Shown here: piece by piece, positions 1-12,190 of the stretch
How the letters are laid out: every line of letters starts with the position of its first letter
Position numbering within the stretch: the first letter of the stretch is position 1
NCBI RefSeq assembly: GCF_000003815.2
Contig: NC_049997.1
Coordinates: 11,958,459-12,022,458 of the forward strand
From: Branchiostoma floridae
Taxonomy: Eukaryota; Chordata; Leptocardii; Amphioxiformes; Branchiostomatidae
Length of the DNA stretch: 64,000 nt
Reading direction: 5' to 3'
The notes under the pieces: model-generated
Seen by the model: only the letters and a program-made list of their open reading frames with translations
The model's database searches: none
Told to the model about the DNA's origin: nothing
Made by a program: the position numbers and the translations under genes

Positions 1-1196
1 CGTGCATGTGTGACTGCAATCACCAAATGCTCATACAAAGCATCACCAAACAATCGATGGAGGGACTCAAATGCCTGACATTCCCTTTCCACGTTAGTGT
101 CAGTATGCTCATAGGACCAGGTCAGAACAATTGCATCAATTCCGACTTTCCCCGGGGACCGTGCCAAATTCGTAGAACAGACAACATCAGACGACAACAT
201 CTTGACACCTTTCACTATCTCTGTGAATTCTGATTTTGTCATCTCTTGAGAAATACCAGGGGTATCAACAACATTCACATCCCAAAGAATATCCTCACAC
301 TGCCCCTGGAAAGACGCTGCCCCAAAGCTGGCTTTACTTGTGCCCCCTCTACGTTTTGACATGAAGCATGTCTTATCAAGAATGCTGTTCCCAGTACTAC
401 TCTTTCCATTCCCCTTGCAACCCACAAGTAACATATTAACAGGGTTTATCTGTGGGGTACGGGTATCTGAACAAGGACTGCTAGCATTACAGCCAATGTT
501 TAGGTCATTCATACTGTCGGCTATCTGCTTAACCGTTGTTTTACCGAGAACATTATCTTCTGAAAGATCAGACGTTATGTTACATGTTACACTGCTACCT
601 GCTACACTTGCAGATCCTTGCTGGGTACATCTGTCGCCTTTTAAAGACTCTGATGAGGCGTACATATCCTCTGATGTAAATGAGAATTCTCTGCGACCAT
701 TAGCATTGTTTGCTCTTGCTGAATAGTGTTCGCTATAGCTTTGAGCACTTGTGTTAGATCGTTCCCAATATGCCGTTAAGTCCCTGACTGTACATGACTT
801 TGGCCTTTCTGAAGGTAGATTGCTAGGTGTTGGTGCTGGACAGGAAGCCCTTAGCCGGCGTTTTCTCTTTTCTGCTACTTTTTCTTTCTTTCTTTTCTCT
901 TCCTCTGCTTCTATTTCCTGAAGAAGACTGTCACACTTTGTTTCCTTTAGTCCTTTCTTAAATGACAGATATGCTTTGTTGCCTGATGAAGACACATGAT
1001 CCACAAGCTCTCTTGCACGGTCCTGTGGTACTTTTTCTGCTTTGATTATACTACGATCTTGCGTAGATATAGCATCGTCTTCATACAGATAGTCTAGAAA
1101 TTCAGCAATATTTCTATTTATTGTTTTTATAATCTTAGATGTGAAGGGTTTTAAAATTTGTTCCACATCCTCTGGTGACAGATTGTCAGATGCCAT
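1..1196 (-). CDS. CARD-AIG1 (GIMAP-like) GTPase, 5' part, cut by window edge
   Basis: I translated the minus strand by hand from the ATG at 1196: the frame is open without a stop to base 1 (398 codons), so the 3' end lies outside. Residues about 8-95 read as a death-fold CARD, with the helix pattern around NRNIAEFLDYLYEDDAIS, then KVPQDRARELVDHVSSSG and AYLSFKKGLKET. A Lys/Glu-rich stretch (about 96-117) and a Ser/Thr-rich linker follow. From about 252 an AIG1-type GTPase begins: G1 loop GCKGNGKSST (G259, G262, G264, K265, S266) and G3 DTPG (311-314). The frame ends at IAVTHA, just where the G4 motif is expected. AIG1/GIMAP GTPases act in immunity and lymphocyte survival; CARDs pair with CARDs in inflammasome and apoptosis adaptors. 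The fusion suggests a nucleotide-gated death or immune adaptor (inference). No intron is seen in this part. The GTPase call is firm, the CARD strong. Confidence 0.87.
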   Translation of the reverse strand, partial: MASDNLSPEDVEQILKPFTSKIIKTINRNIAEFLDYLYEDDAISTQDRSIIKAEKVPQDRARELVDHVSSSGNKAYLSFKKGLKETKCDSLLQEIEAEEEKRKKEKVAEKRKRRLRASCPAPTPSNLPSERPKSCTVRDLTAYWERSNTSAQSYSEHYSARANNANGRREFSFTSEDMYASSESLKGDRCTQQGSASVAGSSVTCNITSDLSEDNVLGKTTVKQIADSMNDLNIGCNASSPCSDTRTPQINPVNMLLVGCKGNGKSSTGNSILDKTCFMSKRRGGTSKASFGAASFQGQCEDILWDVNVVDTPGISQEMTKSEFTEIVKGVKMLSSDVVCSTNLARSPGKVGIDAIVLTWSYEHTDTNVERECQAFESLHRLFGDALYEHLVIAVTHA

Positions 1197-1274
1197 TGCG
1201 TGTAAAGTGTGCCAAACAATAGCCTACTGCAATAGATATCCTATGCTACCCTACCGATGGTTTATGTTCGTAAA

Positions 1275-1384: not shown

Positions 1385-3475
1385 TCGCCTTGATATTGAG
1401 GGTGTTGTTTACATATAATTCAAAAGATACTTAGGATGTTGGCAGTGGGGTATAGGTTGAGAGATTTCAAAGTTTGTTCTCGTTATCTTTCACTTGTACA
1501 TGTTTTAGAGATCTCCCAACACATTCTATGGGTTTCAAAGTGTATGCAACATGACGGATAAATGTTAATGTGAGTTATACCTGCAGTGTGTTGGTGTTCA
1601 CAGAAACGGAGCTACAGGATATCGATGCTCAGAATCCAAGTGACACAGGCAAGTTGTCGTGGTGGGTCGAAGCGGCAGGCACTGCACGGATGTTGTTTCT
1701 GGAATTCATCATCATCGTAGAATTGTCAAACAAGAGCTATAGTTTTATAACAGTAAGCTTCAAATTCATTTTGCGAATACTATGTACTTGCCACCTTTTT
1801 TTCTGTGCAATGAATGTCGGCCACAAACGCTGGATGAATCATACCCGAAACATAGACGGAAATTCCTGGTGAAAAAATATTGCCACATATCCCGAACGTT
1901 CAGGTAAACTAGTAAAGCATTCATACAATTCTAAATTGTTAACTGTTAGTACAATTTGGATTACAATACAATCGGGTTTTTCTTAACTCTCTCAAAATGT
2001 ATGGGTCAACTGGTGCAGGGGTAATCAATGTGTCAGTCATTATTTAGAACATGTCCTTTTACCAATAGGCAGAAGAATCCATTTAGTTTTGTTCAATATG
2101 AGGCATAACTGTGTGGGGGGAGGGCGACTGGCCTTGCCAGTTTGAAGGTCAAAATCTAGTATGCAGACAGACGTGTCAGCTGGATAAAAAAAGAGGGCCG
2201 AACAGTTCCGCGGGCCGCGTTCCGAGGGCCGCGGGCCGAACAGTTCACTCCAAGGCCAAATAACTCCTACAAGGCTTTTATTCCAAACATGGCCAAATTC
2301 CCCTATTGCTATACAGCCCGATGCGAGTCAAAATCAGAAGTGCACACATTTCATATCTAGCGGTGTCTGTATATTCCTAATCCAACGAAGGAGGATAGTA
2401 GCTAGGATACATCACAGATTTAGGCATATTAGTCACAACCTCTCCAAACTGACCCCAATGACCTTTGTTTTGCCTCAACAAGCGTTATTTGTTAAACCCT
2501 GTGGCAAACCTACAGACGTAAAATTTCTAATTTTAACTATATATCTTTATTTTTCTTTCTTCGTCGAAAGCGTGGTGGTAGAATGTATAAGCTACAAAAT
2601 GTTATTCAAATCTTAACTGTTGAAAACTCCTTCTATTCGGGTGTTTACCCAATCATTGAACCCCGTGAACTAGATAGATATAGCTTTCGAACTCGAACTT
2701 CGAACACTTGTTATGCATTTCCATTGTACATACGCCCCTCAGTTCAGCTGCACCTGCTAGACCCCTACAAAAATCGTGAAATCGGCTCAAGACGAAGGGA
2801 TACGAGCTTCCCCAAGTCAAGCCCAGTCCCTATCGACCTAGTTTCACACTAATAGCCTCATAAATATATGTAGTAATAGTCTCACAAAAACATGCGTTGG
2901 CCTAATAATCCAGTTAAGTCAACAAACATGTCTACACCAACCTTGACTACAACAGCACCTTGGCGTCCTTTGAACAGCCCATTTTCTTTTGGTAATGACT
3001 GTAGACTGTGAATCAAATCACGCTACTGACATCCTAAACGAATGGAACCAAGGGGTCTTTCAAAACCTCAGGCCTACTTCCAAAGTGGCGCAGTCACGAT
3101 TGAGTTCACAAAAAAGCTGATACAGTGCAACAGAAAAATGTGTCAACGTGACGCCAACTGTGCCCGCCTTGTCGACGTCACTTATTGACTCTCTAGATGG
3201 TATAAGGTCATCGGTAAAGCCAAGTTACCTGAACGTGCCATTACATGTTTTGCGATATATCTGAAGTAGTAGTAAAAGTATCTGAGCGTTTAGGAAGGTT
3301 ATGGAAACAATTAACCACACAGAACACTGTATGATAAACGCTACATTCAGTTTAATTGTTCAAGTTGTCCTGTTTTAGGAGACTGTATGATAAAAATTCG
3401 GCCCATCGAGTGAGTCTCCCTAGCGTCCAATGCTATATTGCATCATTAAGTCCACATAACAGTATTGCGAAAAAA
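1385..3475. other. Intergenic stretch without a recognised gene
   Basis: AT-rich sequence with short open frames only and no domain or convincing splice pair. A small GC-rich patch at about 2195-2250 repeats the phrase GGGCCGAACAGTTC. Confidence 0.5.
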
Positions 3476-3479
3476 ATTT

Positions 3480-4125
3480 GATGGACTAATAGATAAACAT
3501 ACATGTACAAAACATCGTTGCATTTGTTCAAAGTTTTTTTGTTTTAGAAAGAAGCGTCAAATTGGATATGAAAGCCCTTCGGGAAGTGATAATTAACGAG
3601 AAATGTGTCGTCCACTAGTTCTATTGGTAAAATGCGAAGAAAGCACATGATTTATTAACTGATACCATTGTTTGGTTTCTAACATGTCTTGAATATTACA
3701 ATTCTTGATTCTAAATTGATCCATTTTCAAAACCAGGGCCAAACAAGCCTCAAAGTTTTTGACCCCTTTGCGAGCCTTGCGAGGTTTTCCCATTCCCGAA
3801 AAGATTAAAATTTGGCAATTTGACGGTCGTTGTAACACTTTTCTTGGCGCGGCTGGGAGCGGTACTGCAGATTGGGCTCTCTTGGGGTATGTAATCCCGA
3901 CTGGTAAAAATTCAAAAATATACAGAATGTTAGGTCTAAAGCCTGTTAAAACTTTCCTAAACATGTCCAGGCGTTTTGCCATACATCGAAAATGACTTTT
4001 AAGAAGTTTTTAGAATACTACGTCGCATAACAAGGCTAGAATTTAGGGGGCCGGTAGAAGCCCATATTATGATCGCCCGTAGAAGCGCCGCCTGTATTCC
4101 TGTACACATCACTTCTTGTAAATAC
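3480..4125 (+). repeat. Dispersed repeat family R1, copy 1
   Basis: Shares long similar blocks with copies at about 4740-5275 (inverted) and 12820-13450 (direct): GCATTTGTTCAA near the start, AATTTGGCAATTTGACGGTC and GGGAGCGGTACTGCAGATT in the middle, and CCCGTMGAAGCGCC near the end. No terminal inverted repeat or tRNA head is evident, and open frames inside are not conserved between copies. It looks like a non-autonomous mobile element of about 0.6 kb; boundaries are approximate. Confidence 0.7.
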
Positions 4126-4285
4126 ACGATGAATAGGTTATATGTAAGGGTATGTGTAGACATTATTCACTTTCCCTTGACAACTTTGGTCTTTTCCTTA
4201 ACCGTTCATTCGCGTTTATGACAGCATCAACGCTATCAGTTATCTTCCATTCAACAAGCATTATGAAGTGATGAATGCCAATTCT

Positions 4286-4410
4286 ACTCTCCAAGCAGAG
4301 GTTCAGCTCCGGCTGTGTTTTTGACGTGTTTTAGGCGTTTGTATCAGGCTGTTTATTTTTTGCTGTTTTCTTTATGCAGGAAGACATACGCAACCTCTGC
4401 TTGGAGGGTA
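4286..4410. mobile_element. Miniature inverted-repeat element, subfamily A
   Basis: Begins ACTCTCCAAGCAGAGGTT and ends AACCTCTGCTTGGAGGGT, i.e. inverted termini. The left arm continues CAGCTCCGGCTG, as in the fuller copy at 62153-62319. No coding capacity. Confidence 0.7.
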
Positions 4411-4577
4411 TACCAATTGAGATATCATTCTACATGACACAAAAAAGCTAAGGGACGCCATTGCATCATATATGATATTTCATCAACCTCAGACGCTGTG
4501 TCTTAATAATTTTCAACATGAGTTTTACAAATTTAGAAGTTAGTTTTAGTACCCCGCCTTCTGAGACAAGACAACCT

Positions 4578-4606
4578 ACCTAATCTCCAAGCAGATGTTA
4601 GGGTGA
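4578..4606 (+). repeat. Solo end of a miniature element
   Basis: TAATCTCCAAGCAGATGTTA matches the left terminus of the inverted-repeat family; no matching right arm is seen nearby. Confidence 0.45.
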
Positions 4607-4739
4607 GAGATCGTTGTCTTTTCTGGGTGACAACCGGGCCACTTTGACAATCCCTATAAAAGGATAAACGGTTGAGTAGAAGGTCAAAACTGTTGTGGTT
4701 AAACGCATGACGCCAAAATACATCGTTAACCTACTTATT

Positions 4740-5275
4740 ACGTACAAGATATGATGTACACATGAATATAGGAGGCGCTTCGACGGGCGGACATAGTGTT
4801 ACAGGGGCTCCTCGCGCGGCGCCTACAAATCGATCTTTGTACGCCAACTTGTGTCTTAAAGGTCATTCTAAATGTAGATAAAGATGTCTGGACCTATTTG
4901 GAAAAGTTTTCACTTGCTTGAGAATATTCTTTTTGGTATATATTCGCAATTTACAAGTCGGGTTAATATACCCTATCATAGCCTAATCTGCAGTACCGCT
5001 CCCGGCCGCGTCCACAAAAGTGGCTGAAACGACCGTCAAATTGCCAAATTCCTGTCTTTTCGGGAATGGGGAAATCATGAAAGGCTCACAAAGGGGTTTG
5101 ATTTATTAGACTTAGTTTACCTTCTTTTCGTGAAATTAGACCATTTAGAGTGAAGAATGACAATGTATAAGATAGATCACGAACAAAACCATGGGATATT
5201 AGGTCATAAATGACAAATTTACTTTACGATTTACCAATGTAAGTGGTTGACTGTAAATTATCACCTTCTGAAGGA
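4740..5275 (-). repeat. Dispersed repeat family R1, copy 2 (inverted)
   Basis: Reverse complement of the R1 pattern. It starts with GGAGGCGCTTCGACGGGCGG and GGGGCTCCTCGCGCGGCG, passes AATCTGCAGTACCGCTCCC and GACCGTCAAATTGCCAAATT, and ends near GGGATATTAGGTCATAAATG. It is closest to copy 3, whose GCGCGAGGAGCCC and TTATGACCTAATATCCC mirror it. Confidence 0.75.
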
Positions 5276-6679: not shown

Positions 6680-9600
6680 TTAAAAGCGTAGTCGCAGTTT
6701 TCCCCCGTCGACCCTCGCCCACTGCACTGAGCACCACAGAGACATAAACGTTGTTTCGTTCAGACGTACAAAGTCAAGCTTTATTCTTGAGCGGAGGCAC
6801 TCCTTGATGTATGGGACCATCTCGACATGAGTCGAAAAGGTCTTGTCAAAGAGTGCTTCACAACGTGAGGACCATATGCGTTTCCTCGCGACGGCCAGGG
6901 TGTAGGTGATAGCATCTATCTTGCTTTTTTTCCATGAGGGTGGCAGGATGCCATAGATAACCATCTGTTTATTTATTCGGAAGTCTGACATGACCCATCT
7001 CCTGAGAAAACCCTCCACCCAAGTCCATGTTAGCAGCACTTCGCTGCAGTACCACATGGCGTGCTCTACAGTTTCGTGGCCTTTACAATTCTGCCTTGGA
7101 CAAGTTCCCGAGCGAATGTAACCCCAGTTCGAGCAGAGCAGGGCATTCGTTTTGAGGGCGTGGTGTGCAACCAGCCATGCAGTGTCCTTCAGTCTGTTCT
7201 CCAGGAGTGGGTGTTGAACAGATTGGAAGGTTAATGGCCAGGGAACAGAACGCTTGTTAAGACAGACGCTTGGAATGTGAGCATCCTTCTTTAGAAGGCT
7301 GTCGTATAGAGACCGCGTAGTGCACCCGGGGTCCCACTTTTTAGAGGGGGATGCCTCTACGAGTTCAGATACCAGGGACTGTAGAGCTTTGTAGTGGGGA
7401 GGGGCATTCGGGGAGTGGGGCATGTTATTGGACCATGTTGACGGGTCGAAACGTCTAATGAAAATACCGAGCCAGTACCTGGCGAGCTGCACCCAAGGTA
7501 AGTCTTCCTGGGACATGATGTCCGAGAAAGGCCGACTGTACAGACATTTTGCCTTCTTTGCTATGTCGATTAGGCCCCAGCCGCCCTTCTCAGGAGGAAG
7601 GTAGATGGTATTTCGGCTGATCATCTCACGCTTTTTGTCCCAGAAAAAGGCGAACAGTGCGGTATTGATTTCCTTCATGACCGAATCAGGAGGGGTGAAC
7701 ACCGACGCCAGGTACCACAGTTTGGCGGTGGCTAGAGAGTTTGCCACTGTCACTTTGCCTGTAAAGGAGAGGGATCTGGCTCCCCATCCTTGTAAGGTTT
7801 CAACAAATTTGCGTTTACCTTCCTTCCAGTTGGTTAGGGGCATGTCAATGTTGCCAAAGACCCCACCAAGCAGACGGATGGACCCAGATGTCCATTTTAT
7901 TTGTACAGGGGTGTCTGGTCTATTTCTCCATTTCCCCAGCCATAACCCCTCACACTTGTCTAGGTTCAACATTGAGCCTGAGCCTCTGTTGTACAGCCCG
8001 ACAAGGTCAAACAGCCTGACGATAGAGTCGTCTGATGTCAGGAAGGCAGAGTTATCATCTGCATACAGAGACATTTTGGCTTCGTAGCCGCCTGGGAGTT
8101 TTACTCCATGCACCTCAGAGTCTTTGCGAACTGTCGCCGCAAACGGCTCAAGAGAGATTGCATACAACAGTGGCGAAAGTGGGCATCCCTGCCGCACTCC
8201 CCTTGTTAGGGCGAAGGGAGACGACAGGGAGCCATTCGCCAAAACGGAACTGGAGATGTCGTTGTAAAGTATTGAAACCCACTTCCGAAAGGAAGGTCCA
8301 AATCCCATTCGTGCGAGAGTCTGTTGTAGAAAGGAGATGTTGACACGGTCAAAGGCTTTTGCTTGATCAAGGGAGACAATAGCACATTCGATGTTATTGT
8401 TATTTGCGTAAACAACTATGTCTCGTGTGAGTCGGAGGTTGCACTGGATCGACCTTCCTGGTACACCACAGGTTTGGTCCGGGTGCAACACCGACGCTAT
8501 TACAGACTGAAGGCGGTTATTAAGAACTTTAGTCAAAATTTTGTAGTCGGTGTTTAGGAGGGAGATTGGTCTCCTGTTCTTGGGGTCCAATTCGTCTCCC
8601 TTCTTTGGCAACAGTGTCAAAACCCCAAACTTCTGGCTGGAGGAAAGTTCTCCAGCATCAAGAGCTTCTTGAAACACCTTCAGGAGGTCGTCGGCAATCA
8701 GATGCCAGAAGGTCGTGTAGAACTCTTTGGGTAGACCATCACTGCCCGGGCATTTGTTATTTTGCATGCTGCGGACTGAGTTTAACATTTCGTCGGTTGA
8801 GAGAGGGGCCTCCAATGCTTGGGCCTCCTCTGGGGTCAATGTGTTTTCAAGGTTGTCACAAAGCTGGTCAGAGGCAACCGGGTCCACTGGTTCCTCAGCA
8901 AACAGCTCTGCGTAGAATTCGTAGAAAACATTTGCGATTTCGTCATCCTCATGGACAACTTGTCCCATTGAGTCTCGTATGGCACAGATCCTTTTCTTCT
9001 TGCCGTTGGAAGCGGCCTGCTTTAGAAAGAAGGACGTGCACTTTTCCCCCTCCTCAAATTGTTTGATTCGGGATCTGACGATGGCGCCCTGAGCTTCAGA
9101 GGTTGCCAACTCTGACAGTGCGTCTTTCGTGGCCTTATATTGTCTCAGGACATCAGGTGAGACCGCACCAGCATTAAGCTGGTTGGTCAGATCCCCTAAA
9201 GTGTTGTTCAGTTGGTAACGAGCTTCTCTTTTGTCTTTGGCTATCTTACATGAGTGCTTAATAAACAAGGAGCGGGTTCGGTCTTTGACGTCATCCCACC
9301 AAGATCTCAGGGAAGGGTAACCCAACTTCAAAGTCTGCCAGTCCTTGTAGGACGCAGTGAAGTCCGACTGGACTTCTTTGTTCTTTAGGATGGAAACATT
9401 GCACTTCCACATGGAAGACTTCTTTTTAGCTGTTGGAAGCACATCAATTCCCACACAATCGTGGTCTGTGAAGTATGCAGGCCGGAAAAAATGGCCAGAG
9501 ACGGGCAGATTGTTGGATGAGTAAAGTCTATCCAGTCGACATGCTACAGCGTTATCAGGTTGACGCCACGTATATACGCGCCCATCCGGATTCAGCTGCC

Positions 9601-10186
9601 TCCATGAGTCATGTAGGTTGTGACTAGCACAGAGGTTCTTTAGAATTTTCGAACCTCCAGAACTACGACTTGGATTTCCCCCTCTTTTATCTAGGCTGGG
9701 AGACTCAATGCAGTTGAAATCCCCACAAAGGACCGTGGACTCAGAGTTGGATAAGAAATTGCCTAGACCACGGAAAAATGTGGATCGTTCAGTTGCATCA
9801 TTCGGTGCGTATACGTTGCACACTCGAAGAGAGCGCGTGCCGTCAGCCAGGACTGCGGAAACTACGCGACCCTCATCATCGCAGAATTTCTTAGTTATTT
9901 TCAAGTCAAGGGATGGGGCCCCCGAGCTCCTATTACCTCTAGAATTGGGCGTACCAAGGCTCCATAGGGCCCGCCCTCCCCATTCCTTTTCCCACTTAGT
10001 AGTTTCATCCACATGTGTAATGTGACTCTCTTGCAGGCAAACAATATCAAATTTGTGTTGTCTGCAAAAGTCGTATACCTGTTTGCGTTTGTTGGGATTG
10101 CGCATCCCACAAACGTTTAAGGTTGCTATAACCACCATCGTTAACATAAAGAAGGCATTGAGCCTATGCATATTTTGGGACATCAT
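6680..10186 (-). CDS. Non-LTR retrotransposon ORF2: endonuclease-reverse transcriptase
   Basis: 1168 aa, uninterrupted. Residues about 17-250 form an APE-type endonuclease that nicks target DNA: N24 (LNVCG), E53 (LQESH), Y126 (NVYAP), D156 and N158 (GDFNC), D219 (RLDRLY) and D241-H242 (TDHDC). Residues about 470-760 form the reverse transcriptase: KCPGSDGLPKEF (478-489), motif A SLDQAKAFD with D607, motif B RQGCPLSP (665-672) and motif C YADD (708-711). A C-terminal zinc finger C1029-x4-C1034-x7-H1042-x4-C1047 is typical of L1/Tx1 proteins. The product reverse transcribes element RNA at the nicked target. Its ATG overlaps the ORF1 stop (TAATG), so translation may depend on reinitiation. Many frames on the opposite strand here are shadows of this gene. 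Confidence 0.95.
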   Translation of the reverse strand: MMSQNMHRLNAFFMLTMVVIATLNVCGMRNPNKRKQVYDFCRQHKFDIVCLQESHITHVDETTKWEKEWGGRALWSLGTPNSRGNRSSGAPSLDLKITKKFCDDEGRVVSAVLADGTRSLRVCNVYAPNDATERSTFFRGLGNFLSNSESTVLCGDFNCIESPSLDKRGGNPSRSSGGSKILKNLCASHNLHDSWRQLNPDGRVYTWRQPDNAVACRLDRLYSSNNLPVSGHFFRPAYFTDHDCVGIDVLPTAKKKSSMWKCNVSILKNKEVQSDFTASYKDWQTLKLGYPSLRSWWDDVKDRTRSLFIKHSCKIAKDKREARYQLNNTLGDLTNQLNAGAVSPDVLRQYKATKDALSELATSEAQGAIVRSRIKQFEEGEKCTSFFLKQAASNGKKKRICAIRDSMGQVVHEDDEIANVFYEFYAELFAEEPVDPVASDQLCDNLENTLTPEEAQALEAPLSTDEMLNSVRSMQNNKCPGSDGLPKEFYTTFWHLIADDLLKVFQEALDAGELSSSQKFGVLTLLPKKGDELDPKNRRPISLLNTDYKILTKVLNNRLQSVIASVLHPDQTCGVPGRSIQCNLRLTRDIVVYANNNNIECAIVSLDQAKAFDRVNISFLQQTLARMGFGPSFRKWVSILYNDISSSVLANGSLSSPFALTRGVRQGCPLSPLLYAISLEPFAATVRKDSEVHGVKLPGGYEAKMSLYADDNSAFLTSDDSIVRLFDLVGLYNRGSGSMLNLDKCEGLWLGKWRNRPDTPVQIKWTSGSIRLLGGVFGNIDMPLTNWKEGKRKFVETLQGWGARSLSFTGKVTVANSLATAKLWYLASVFTPPDSVMKEINTALFAFFWDKKREMISRNTIYLPPEKGGWGLIDIAKKAKCLYSRPFSDIMSQEDLPWVQLARYWLGIFIRRFDPSTWSNNMPHSPNAPPHYKALQSLVSELVEASPSKKWDPGCTTRSLYDSLLKKDAHIPSVCLNKRSVPWPLTFQSVQHPLLENRLKDTAWLVAHHALKTNALLCSNWGYIRSGTCPRQNCKGHETVEHAMWYCSEVLLTWTWVEGFLRRWVMSDFRINKQMVIYGILPPSWKKSKIDAITYTLAVARKRIWSSRCEALFDKTFSTHVEMVPYIKECLRSRIKLDFVRLNETTFMSLWCSVQWARVDGGKLRLRF

Positions 10187-10188
10187 TA
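10184..10188 (-). promoter_or_regulatory. TAATG stop-start overlap between ORF1 and ORF2
   Basis: On the minus strand the last base of the ORF1 TAA (10188-10186) is the first base of the ORF2 ATG (10186-10184). The same arrangement is known to couple termination and reinitiation in the SART1 non-LTR retrotransposon, so it may set the ORF2 to ORF1 ratio here. A second ATG follows immediately in frame. Confidence 0.7.
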
Positions 10189-11540
10189 TAGAGATTCTCC
10201 AGATGACGTGAACTCGTCGATGGCTAGCTCTCCTGATAAGGGAAGGTCGTAACCGGGACTATGAGGGCCCTTCGTTACTGTCGACGGCTCACTCTTTCTT
10301 TTGGGGCTGACTTCTTCGTCGGAAGGCGCAGGCCTTTTAGAGGTCTGCTGGTCGACTTCCATCGCGTCAGATGACGGGTCTCCAGTATGTGGGGCCTTCT
10401 TCTTGGCCACCACATTTTTGACTGGTGTCTGAGGCTCAACCAATTTTTTTGGACCTGGGGTTGTTTCTGACTCCTTGGTAAAGACTCTTCGACCTCGTTG
10501 TTCTGTTTGCGGCCATTTTTGGCCTTGCCCTTGCGCTTCTTGCGTTTCTTGTTGCGAGGATGGGTTGTTTCTTGCTCCCCGTTTGGTTCAATGCGCTCCG
10601 CAGAGCTCGGAGATGGTTGGGTTGCTTCAAGAAGCAGCTCCCTTTCTAGCTCCCTTTCTTTCTCCGTCAGTTCGTCAGAGGAAGCAAATTCCTCGGCGGA
10701 ATCATCTTCCCCGCTCTCCTCCGACCCGGAGTCGCTGGAGTCAGTCTCGTTTGTTTGCTCACTCTGACTCTTACCACTGGAGACAGTCTCGTTTACTTGA
10801 GACTGCTCACTCTGACCAGGGGTCTTAGCACTGGCCACGGTTGCCTCAGCAGCCGGACCGCTGGTCCACTTATTGTCAGGCAGCAGTTTGTTGGCATATG
10901 AAGTAGGGCACCGACGTGCGGTGTGTCCCTCCTTGCCGCACTGATTACAGACTACTTGATTGCTGCATTCCGCAGAGGTATGCCCGATCAGTTGGCATTT
11001 GTTACAGAAGATGACAGTACATTGTGCTGCCTCGTGCCCTTCCTGGTAACATTTCAGACATGTTCTTTGTTGTCCGACATACCGGAAAAAGGCTAACCGA
11101 CCGTCTGCTAACCTCCAAGAGGACGGGATGTTTGCCCCTGGTTTGAGTATAACCTTGTACTGCCTGTTCCCATTACGGACAGTAGGTCTGTCCCTGTAGG
11201 TGGTCATACGGGAAGCCAGGACCTGTCCATAACGGGATAGCCAGTACCGTACGTGATTGTCATCAAACTCGTCCGGTATACGGGTTGCTGTGACGACTGT
11301 CTCAGCACTTCCGTACACACGGACATCTAAGTACTGTAGTGCCGAGAGTTTACCCCCATACAACTTTCTATCGTGAAGCGTACGGAAGGTCAAATCGAAA
11401 GACGTAGCGTTCAGCGCTTGCACTGTCTGGAGACTGGATGTAGGTATCCCCACAGAGTCCAGGAGTGCCCAGGTCTCCTGCTCAGATAACTTGTCTTTCT
11501 GAGCGGTATACGTAACGCAAATTGAGTTGTCTCTCCTCAT
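10186..11540 (-). CDS. Retrotransposon ORF1: CCHC zinc-knuckle RNA-binding protein, one frame slip
   Basis: From the ATG at 11540 the frame runs 421 aa to a stop at 10275. Residues about 80-155 resemble an RRM-like fold. Three CCHC knuckles follow: C161-C164-H169-C174, C179-C182-H187-C192 and C198-C201-H206-C211. After them comes a Ser/Glu-rich acidic stretch and a Lys/Arg-rich segment. Near residue 366, at an A7 run (10443-10452), the better-looking tail lies in the -1 frame: VEPQTPVKNVVAKKK to FTSSGESL, 85 codons, stopping at 10186. The zero-frame tail (WLSLRHQSKMWW onward) looks non-native. Restoring one base, or a -1 slip, would give about 451 aa ending at TAATG. ORF1 proteins bind element RNA to form the transposition particle. 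A deletion or sequencing error is likelier than programmed slippage. Confidence 0.85.
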
Positions 11541-12190
11541 TTTGCCTAGTCCGAAATCAGTCTATTTCTCTGTGGAGTATATGGAAGGTTCCTTCCAGGG
11601 TCTCCAGAAACCCCTTTTAGAGCCCCGGAATGCCACCTATTCTAAAAATAGCGATTGACCCAGAAAAACAGTGGCACCAGGCGGTGTGCTTGGACTGTAT
11701 CAACCCCTTCACCCACTATGGCCGGGGGGCGAGGGTACAGAAACAGCTCAAAACACCACAAATTCGATTCGAAGCGAAACAAGACTATGTAGGAATGTTG
11801 GCACAAACCTGCTTTCCTTTCCTACAAAGTAGGAAGAGTATCCCTTCACGGGCAAGGGAAATATCTACCGGCAAAGATTGCACGTGTCCACCTACCCTCG
11901 TCTAGCGGCACGAGGACGTAGGGGGGACCCGTACGCTCGACGTGGAGGGTGTCGGTGGCACGAAAAAACACCGTAACTCCTCCAAAAATCAACTTACAGA
12001 AGATCGAAAACCATCGAAATGATCCTGGTAAAACCAGCTAACCGACTGACTAAACCTCCGGCCTAGACTCTCACTCCAACCATACAAAAATGGCTGAAAA
12101 AGAGCTCTAGACCTGCAGCACGCGGCAAAAGCGTCTACACGACGCCACGCATGCGCCGTAATCTCCAAGACGTAACATGCAACCAAGTTA
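11541..12190 (-). other. Probable 5' UTR and promoter region of the retrotransposon
   Basis: GC-richer than the flanks and without a long frame on the sense strand. It directly precedes ORF1. Internal RNA polymerase II promoters are usual in this position for L1/Tx1 elements, but I see no specific motif that proves it. Confidence 0.5.

Follow-up and report, generated by a model that had tools for sequence, protein, structure and literature searches.

An N-terminal CARD and two unequal AIG1 domains encoded in one open reading frame of Branchiostoma floridae

The CARD-AIG1-AIG1 gene and its domains

The window analyzed here is a 64,000-nucleotide stretch of the Branchiostoma floridae genome (G000:C19:11958459-12022458; genome of 513 Mb in 431 contigs), and at its left edge lies the N-terminal part of a minus-strand gene encoding a CARD, a linker, and two AIG1 domains. 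Within window positions 3 to 1196 an ATG at 1196 opens the frame, which reaches the window edge without a stop after 398 residues. A first-pass annotation had described an uninterrupted CARD, linker, and AIG1 domain here, which the frame and the Pfam matches bear out, and had proposed extending the contig to the left. This extension (L009, G000:C19:11950500-11960400) completed the gene as a single open reading frame (ORF) of 897 codons plus a stop, with no internal stops, terminating at G000:C19:11956961, outside the left edge of the window. The gene is complete, probably functional, and of a kind that has been published. A possible 3′ splice acceptor, ATTGCAG, seen by eye immediately 5′ of the ATG, makes a 5′ untranslated exon farther upstream possible.

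The CARD was matched by Pfam with 46.2 bits over residues 20 to 89 of the window piece and with 43.6 bits in the full-length protein (cut-off, 23.9), a profile match where the first-pass annotation had placed the domain, at residues 8 to 95. A single-sequence structure model of residues 1 to 106 resembles solved CARDs, with Apaf-1 CARDs as the top fold matches. The best single-sequence PDB match of the CARD is ICEBERG, a CARD-only caspase-1 inhibitor that is listed as a protease inhibitor. In the profile comparison the cIAP1 CARD matched best; Apaf-1, NLRC4, and NOD1 also match. The linker that follows is serine rich and low in hydrophobic content (0.16 over residues 96 to 248).

AIG1 was matched with 235.1 bits in two stretches of the full-length protein and with 63 bits at residues 254 to 397 of the window piece (cut-off, 27). 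The single AIG1 domain of the first-pass annotation is therefore real, but the gene has two, and the window shows only the degenerate copy. The P-loop and DTPG motifs called intact in that annotation are likewise both present, but in a domain without the Asp of G4 or the RF/YT pattern of the conserved box. G4 was scored as T/S-x-x-D and the conserved box as RF/YT, following the motif definitions of PMC7053062. The first domain keeps G1 and G3, has THAR at G4, and carries Thr in the box column without RF/YT; because the G4 Asp and the RF/YT pattern are missing, it is, judged by its motifs, not a fully canonical GTPase domain. The second domain has GKTGVGKS (G1), DSPG (G3), QRFTQ (conserved box), TGKD (G4), and FFNN (G5). 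Its best PDB matches are GIMAP7 (E value, 1.1e-23) and GIMAP4 (2.5e-23), and those of the first domain are GIMAP1, GIMAP2, and GIMAP7 (2.8e-9 to 3.9e-8). A very short intron was considered as the source of the approximately 15 extra residues in the first domain and rejected: inspection by eye showed a single GT...AG span, whose 40 bases are too few for an intron and not divisible by three.

The protein ends in a basic, weakly amphipathic segment. The last 60 residues contain LTKLWRTIRRKLRKRRKR (basic residues, 11; acidic residues, 0), with a helical moment of 0.60, a value reached in 12 of 500 shuffles of the tail, and a mean hydrophobicity of -0.08. At a threshold of ≤20 of 500 shuffles, 7 of 15 proteins pass this test, including 6 of the 11 tandem proteins; the CARD paralogue on contig C9 fails it (111 of 500). 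The basic segment may have a membrane role.

Six Pfam families matched the full-length protein at E values up to 0.1, with no GBP, NB-ARC, or NACHT among them. In placing a CARD beside a nucleotide switch, the protein is like those of the Apaf-1/NLRC4 type, in which the switch is NB-ARC/NACHT and not AIG1. A relation to bacterial defense systems was also considered and rejected: PADLOC returned only LeoA (19.9 bits, residues 473 to 614), and the nine NCBIfam families matched were all below their own cut-offs.

Table 1. Positions of the CARD-AIG1-AIG1 gene, its parts, and its CARD-bearing paralogues
Feature	Position	Strand	Remarks
Complete CARD-AIG1-AIG1 ORF	G000:C19:11956961-11959654	-	897 codons
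N-terminal 398 codons of the gene	window 1..1196	-	other 1,498 bases lie left of the window
CARD (predicted fold), residues 8-100	window 897..1175	-	Pfam core residues 20-89 = window 930-1139
Serine-rich linker, residues 101-248	window 453..896	-	length and sequence vary among the three CARD paralogues
First AIG1 domain, N-terminal part, residues 254-398	window 3..437	-	continues left of the window
P-loop (G1) GCKGNGKS, residues 259-266	window 399..422	-	first AIG1 domain
G3 motif DTPG, residues 311-314	window 255..266	-	first AIG1 domain
In-frame extra stretch, ~15 residues from residue 336	window 147..191	-	missing in the two CARD paralogues
Possible 3′ splice acceptor	window 1227..1240	-	by eye only
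Neighboring CARD-AIG1 gene	L009:2703-4607	same as this gene	1.9 kb further left; 635 codons; CARD, 32.1 bits
C9 CARD-AIG1 paralogue	L011:1900-4950		CARD, 30.1 bits

Elsewhere in the window, a long interspersed nuclear element at 6680-11561 (-) has both frames open, with an ORF1 of 428 residues containing a zinc knuckle and an ORF2 of 1,192 residues containing an endonuclease and a reverse transcriptase.

AIG1 domains and CARD paralogues in the genome

A search of the genome with the AIG1 profile gave 30 matches, every one over cut-off, which correspond to 17 loci (stretches were fetched over all 30). In a control, the same profile had matches in 12 of 14 prokaryote genomes, 7 of them above cut-off, which indicates that it also picks up other P-loop GTPases, and caution is needed with the matches that scored lowest in the genome (three, at 30.7, 40.5, and 46.8 bits). 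Two or more AIG1 domains occur in one ORF at 11 of the 17 loci, and a CARD lies in the same ORF as AIG1 at 3, so that at least three genes share the order of CARD, variable linker, and two AIG1 domains. Amino acid identity among these three is 26 to 27% in the CARDs, 14 to 25% in the linkers, 37 to 43% in the first AIG1 domains, and 44 to 46% in the second. In all three pairs, the nonsynonymous divergence (dN) of the CARDs is 0.74 to 0.87 versus a synonymous divergence (dS) of 1.9 to 2.5; that dN is below dS hints at constraint on the CARDs, though weakly, because dS is near saturation there and was not computable in four of the six AIG1 comparisons.

A profile built from the three CARDs was run against the window and stretches L001 to L024, which makes the CARD count a lower bound. 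It returned the three CARD-AIG1 genes and one further, Pfam-confirmed CARD (L024:1258-1590); weak matches at L013 (and the same place in L005) and at L011 had no Pfam confirmation. Ahead of its CARD, the C9 paralogue carries eight copies and a partial ninth of the 18-residue unit GQSSMEKES[GR]EQREPRQE (L011:1903-2334, +).

The tree built from 26 AIG1 domains has a single branch (support, 100/99) that separates 11 first from 11 second domains, and the tandem therefore predates these paralogues. The second domains of the three CARD genes group with those of L010 and L012 (support, 97/97); the grouping of the corresponding first domains is not resolved in the tree. This pattern would fit, but does not show, a single gain of the CARD, with the CARD lost afterward or its exons missed. 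The L012 protein (2152-4191, -) has three AIG1 stretches, and its ORF, as read by eye, begins inside the first of them, which suggests that upstream exons are absent or fall within a gap of the assembly.

The unequal state of the two domains recurs across the tandem proteins. The G4 Asp is present in all 11 second domains, whose conserved box has Arg in 9 and Lys in 2, and in only 1 of 11 first domains, that of the neighboring CARD gene; none of the 11 first domains has the RF/YT pattern. Loss of the G4 Asp from the first domain is thus common to 10 of 11 tandem paralogues and therefore old.

Published fusions and other AIG1 loci with added domains

The CARD-AIG1 fusion, whose novelty the first-pass annotation had implied, is already in the literature (PMC12373286 and PMC7053062). 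In the first of these (PLoS Genet 2025), an N-terminal CARD with AIG1 domains is reported as recurrent in lancelets, with B. floridae one of two species, and is called unique among animals; the architecture given is an N-terminal CARD, two or three AIG1 domains, and C-terminal copies in one cluster. The gene described here has the same layout, with an N-terminal CARD, two AIG1 stretches, and second domains in one cluster; it probably belongs to the same family and is perhaps one of the very genes reported. In the available text of that paper, neither degeneracy of the first domain nor a basic C-terminus is described.

The second paper (BMC Genomics 2020) predicts a DD-CARD + AIG1 + coiled-coil splice form of Bg8770 in the snail Biomphalaria glabrata, likewise an invertebrate joining CARD and AIG1, and uses a coiled-coil beside AIG1 as its criterion for snail GIMAPs. 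Bg8770 differs in having one AIG1 domain and a coiled-coil in the listed form and in lacking the CARD in one of three splice variants, whereas here the CARD and both GTPase domains share one uninterrupted ORF. Given this prediction, the statement that the lancelet combination is unique seems too strong. A term search of the main text of an earlier paper on amphioxus domain shuffling (PMC2575513) returned neither AIG1 nor GTPase.

Vertebrate GIMAPs share the AIG1 domain, and GIMAP8 has three GTPase domains. The first-pass annotation's statement that they carry no CARD is consistent with a GIMAP review (PMC8201404), which mentions none in its available text; vertebrate genomes were not searched. 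Zebrafish Gbp4 also joins an immune GTPase and a CARD in one chain, but it belongs to the guanylate-binding proteins and has its CARD at the C-terminus rather than the N-terminus, and the comparison is one of working principle only (PMC4932187).

Other AIG1 loci of the genome have further domains. At L024 (G000:C236), a CARD exon (1258-1590; 58.8 bits), a TIR exon (1694-2194; 35.9 bits), and AIG1 pieces (2960-4770; one match of 40.5 bits, the others by eye) lie within 3.5 kb, all on the plus strand. The CARD and TIR exons could be joined in phase through GT-AG sites; in the AIG1 part, a GT-AG joint was looked for at one frame change and none was found. The locus may be a gene of CARD-TIR-AIG1 type or such a gene in decay, with only a putative TIR-AIG1 joint. 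A Hint (hedgehog/intein-type) module adjoins AIG1 at L014:2767-4677 (-; 83.1 bits), L013:1301-2275 (-; 82.1 bits), and L023:5254-6138 (+; 108.7 bits), within one ORF at L014 and, at L023, next to the end piece of an AIG1 domain that scored under the cut-off (19.5 bits); HINT is also mentioned in PMC12373286. On C18, a GT4-conflict domain (L013:8057-8788, -; 33 bits; cut-off, 26) lies upstream of the AIG1/Hint locus.

Possible function of the gene

We tentatively prefer, as plausible though short of probable, the reading that this is a host immune gene in which the CARD at the N-terminus, a flexible linker, one degenerate and one canonical AIG1 domain, and a basic C-terminus act together by GTP-driven clustering of CARDs. 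The protein would be a GTP-gated CARD scaffold, functionally comparable, by analogy, to zebrafish Gbp4; a nucleotide-gated scaffold had also been suggested in the first-pass annotation. The domain content, CARD resemblance, motif states, and paralogues are observed; the course proposed on top of them is as follows. The basic C-terminus might hold the protein at a membrane, and the second AIG1 domain would bind GTP and form dimers or oligomers, as GIMAPs are known to do. The first domain would not be a second full GTPase but a fixed partner or a regulator. Assembly would cluster the CARDs, which could in turn nucleate a larger CARD assembly and draw in a caspase, adaptor, or kinase that has a CARD, until GTP hydrolysis by the second domain reset the system.

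Several reports are in keeping with such a course. GIMAP2 forms dimers on GTP, GIMAP7 raises the GTPase activity of both itself and GIMAP2, and a scaffold-forming role has been proposed for membrane-bound GIMAPs (PMC8201404); GIMAP2 dimerizes in the parallel mode that dynamin-type GTPases also use (PMC4774019). In zebrafish Gbp4, GTPase activity is indispensable for caspase-1 activation, which proceeds through Asc, and loss of the CARD lowers activation (PMC4932187). Weighing against parts of this reading are the low hydrophobicity of the C-terminal tail, which argues against membrane insertion; an Arg in the conserved-box column of 7 of 11 first domains, though not in that of this gene; and, as regards gating, the observation that GTPase-deficient Gbp4 still complexes with Asc in HEK293T cells (PMC4932187). 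A bolder form of the idea, which we consider rather unlikely, would make the protein a self-contained GTP-gated CARD nucleator: the tandem being old, the degenerate AIG1 domain would be a built-in partner of the active one, GTP loading within or between chains would set the number of CARDs assembled, and the lancelet subfamily, with its CARD fixed in the ORF and not spliced on, would form a GIMAP-based inflammasome-like platform.

The nature of the CARD bears on an unlikely alternative, in which it is inhibitory: the protein would be a decoy or survival factor, sequestering the partners of CARDs and releasing them according to GTP state. ICEBERG and cIAP1 as the best single-sequence and profile matches would agree with this, as would the pro-survival functions described for GIMAP5 (PMC8201404), but similarity cannot tell activating from inhibitory CARDs, and Apaf-1, NLRC4, and NOD1 match too. 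The CARD might instead be merely a dimerizing or targeting module of a membrane-trafficking GTPase, without death-fold signaling. The basic C-terminus and the locations of GIMAP2 (lipid droplets) and GIMAP6 (autophagosomes) given in PMC8201404 speak for this quite unlikely possibility; against it, Pfam still recognizes a CARD in three paralogues that are just 26 to 27% identical there.

In a third alternative, the family would be one of fast turnover and the gene would do little. In its favor, PMC12373286 reports that of 12 annotated GIMAP genes of B. floridae, 6 are present in some animals and absent from others, and calls them dispensable; in the gene itself, motifs have been lost from the first AIG1 domain, which carries about 15 extra residues. 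That this is a dispensable or decaying member with little present function is nevertheless decidedly improbable, given 897 codons free of stops, a canonical second domain, and a G4 Asp loss that is old and shared rather than peculiar to this gene. An artifact uniting a CARD and an AIG1 domain from separate genes, for which nothing speaks, is very unlikely indeed, close to excluded, since the frame is uninterrupted, the layout is identical at three loci, and the architecture is published.

That the fusion has been reported from a snail (PMC7053062) as well as from lancelets (PMC12373286) indicates that it is old or arose more than once, contrary to the claim that, among animals, it is restricted to amphioxus. 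What is of interest beyond the published fusion is the unequal GTPase pair behind the CARD and the CARD/TIR/AIG1 locus at L024. With a CARD of its own in the chain, the function of an invertebrate GIMAP becomes a testable question, and if the clustering of CARDs proves to be under the control of GTP state, death-fold signaling would have a further kind of nucleotide switch, the AIG1 GTPases, besides the GBPs and the STAND NTPases.
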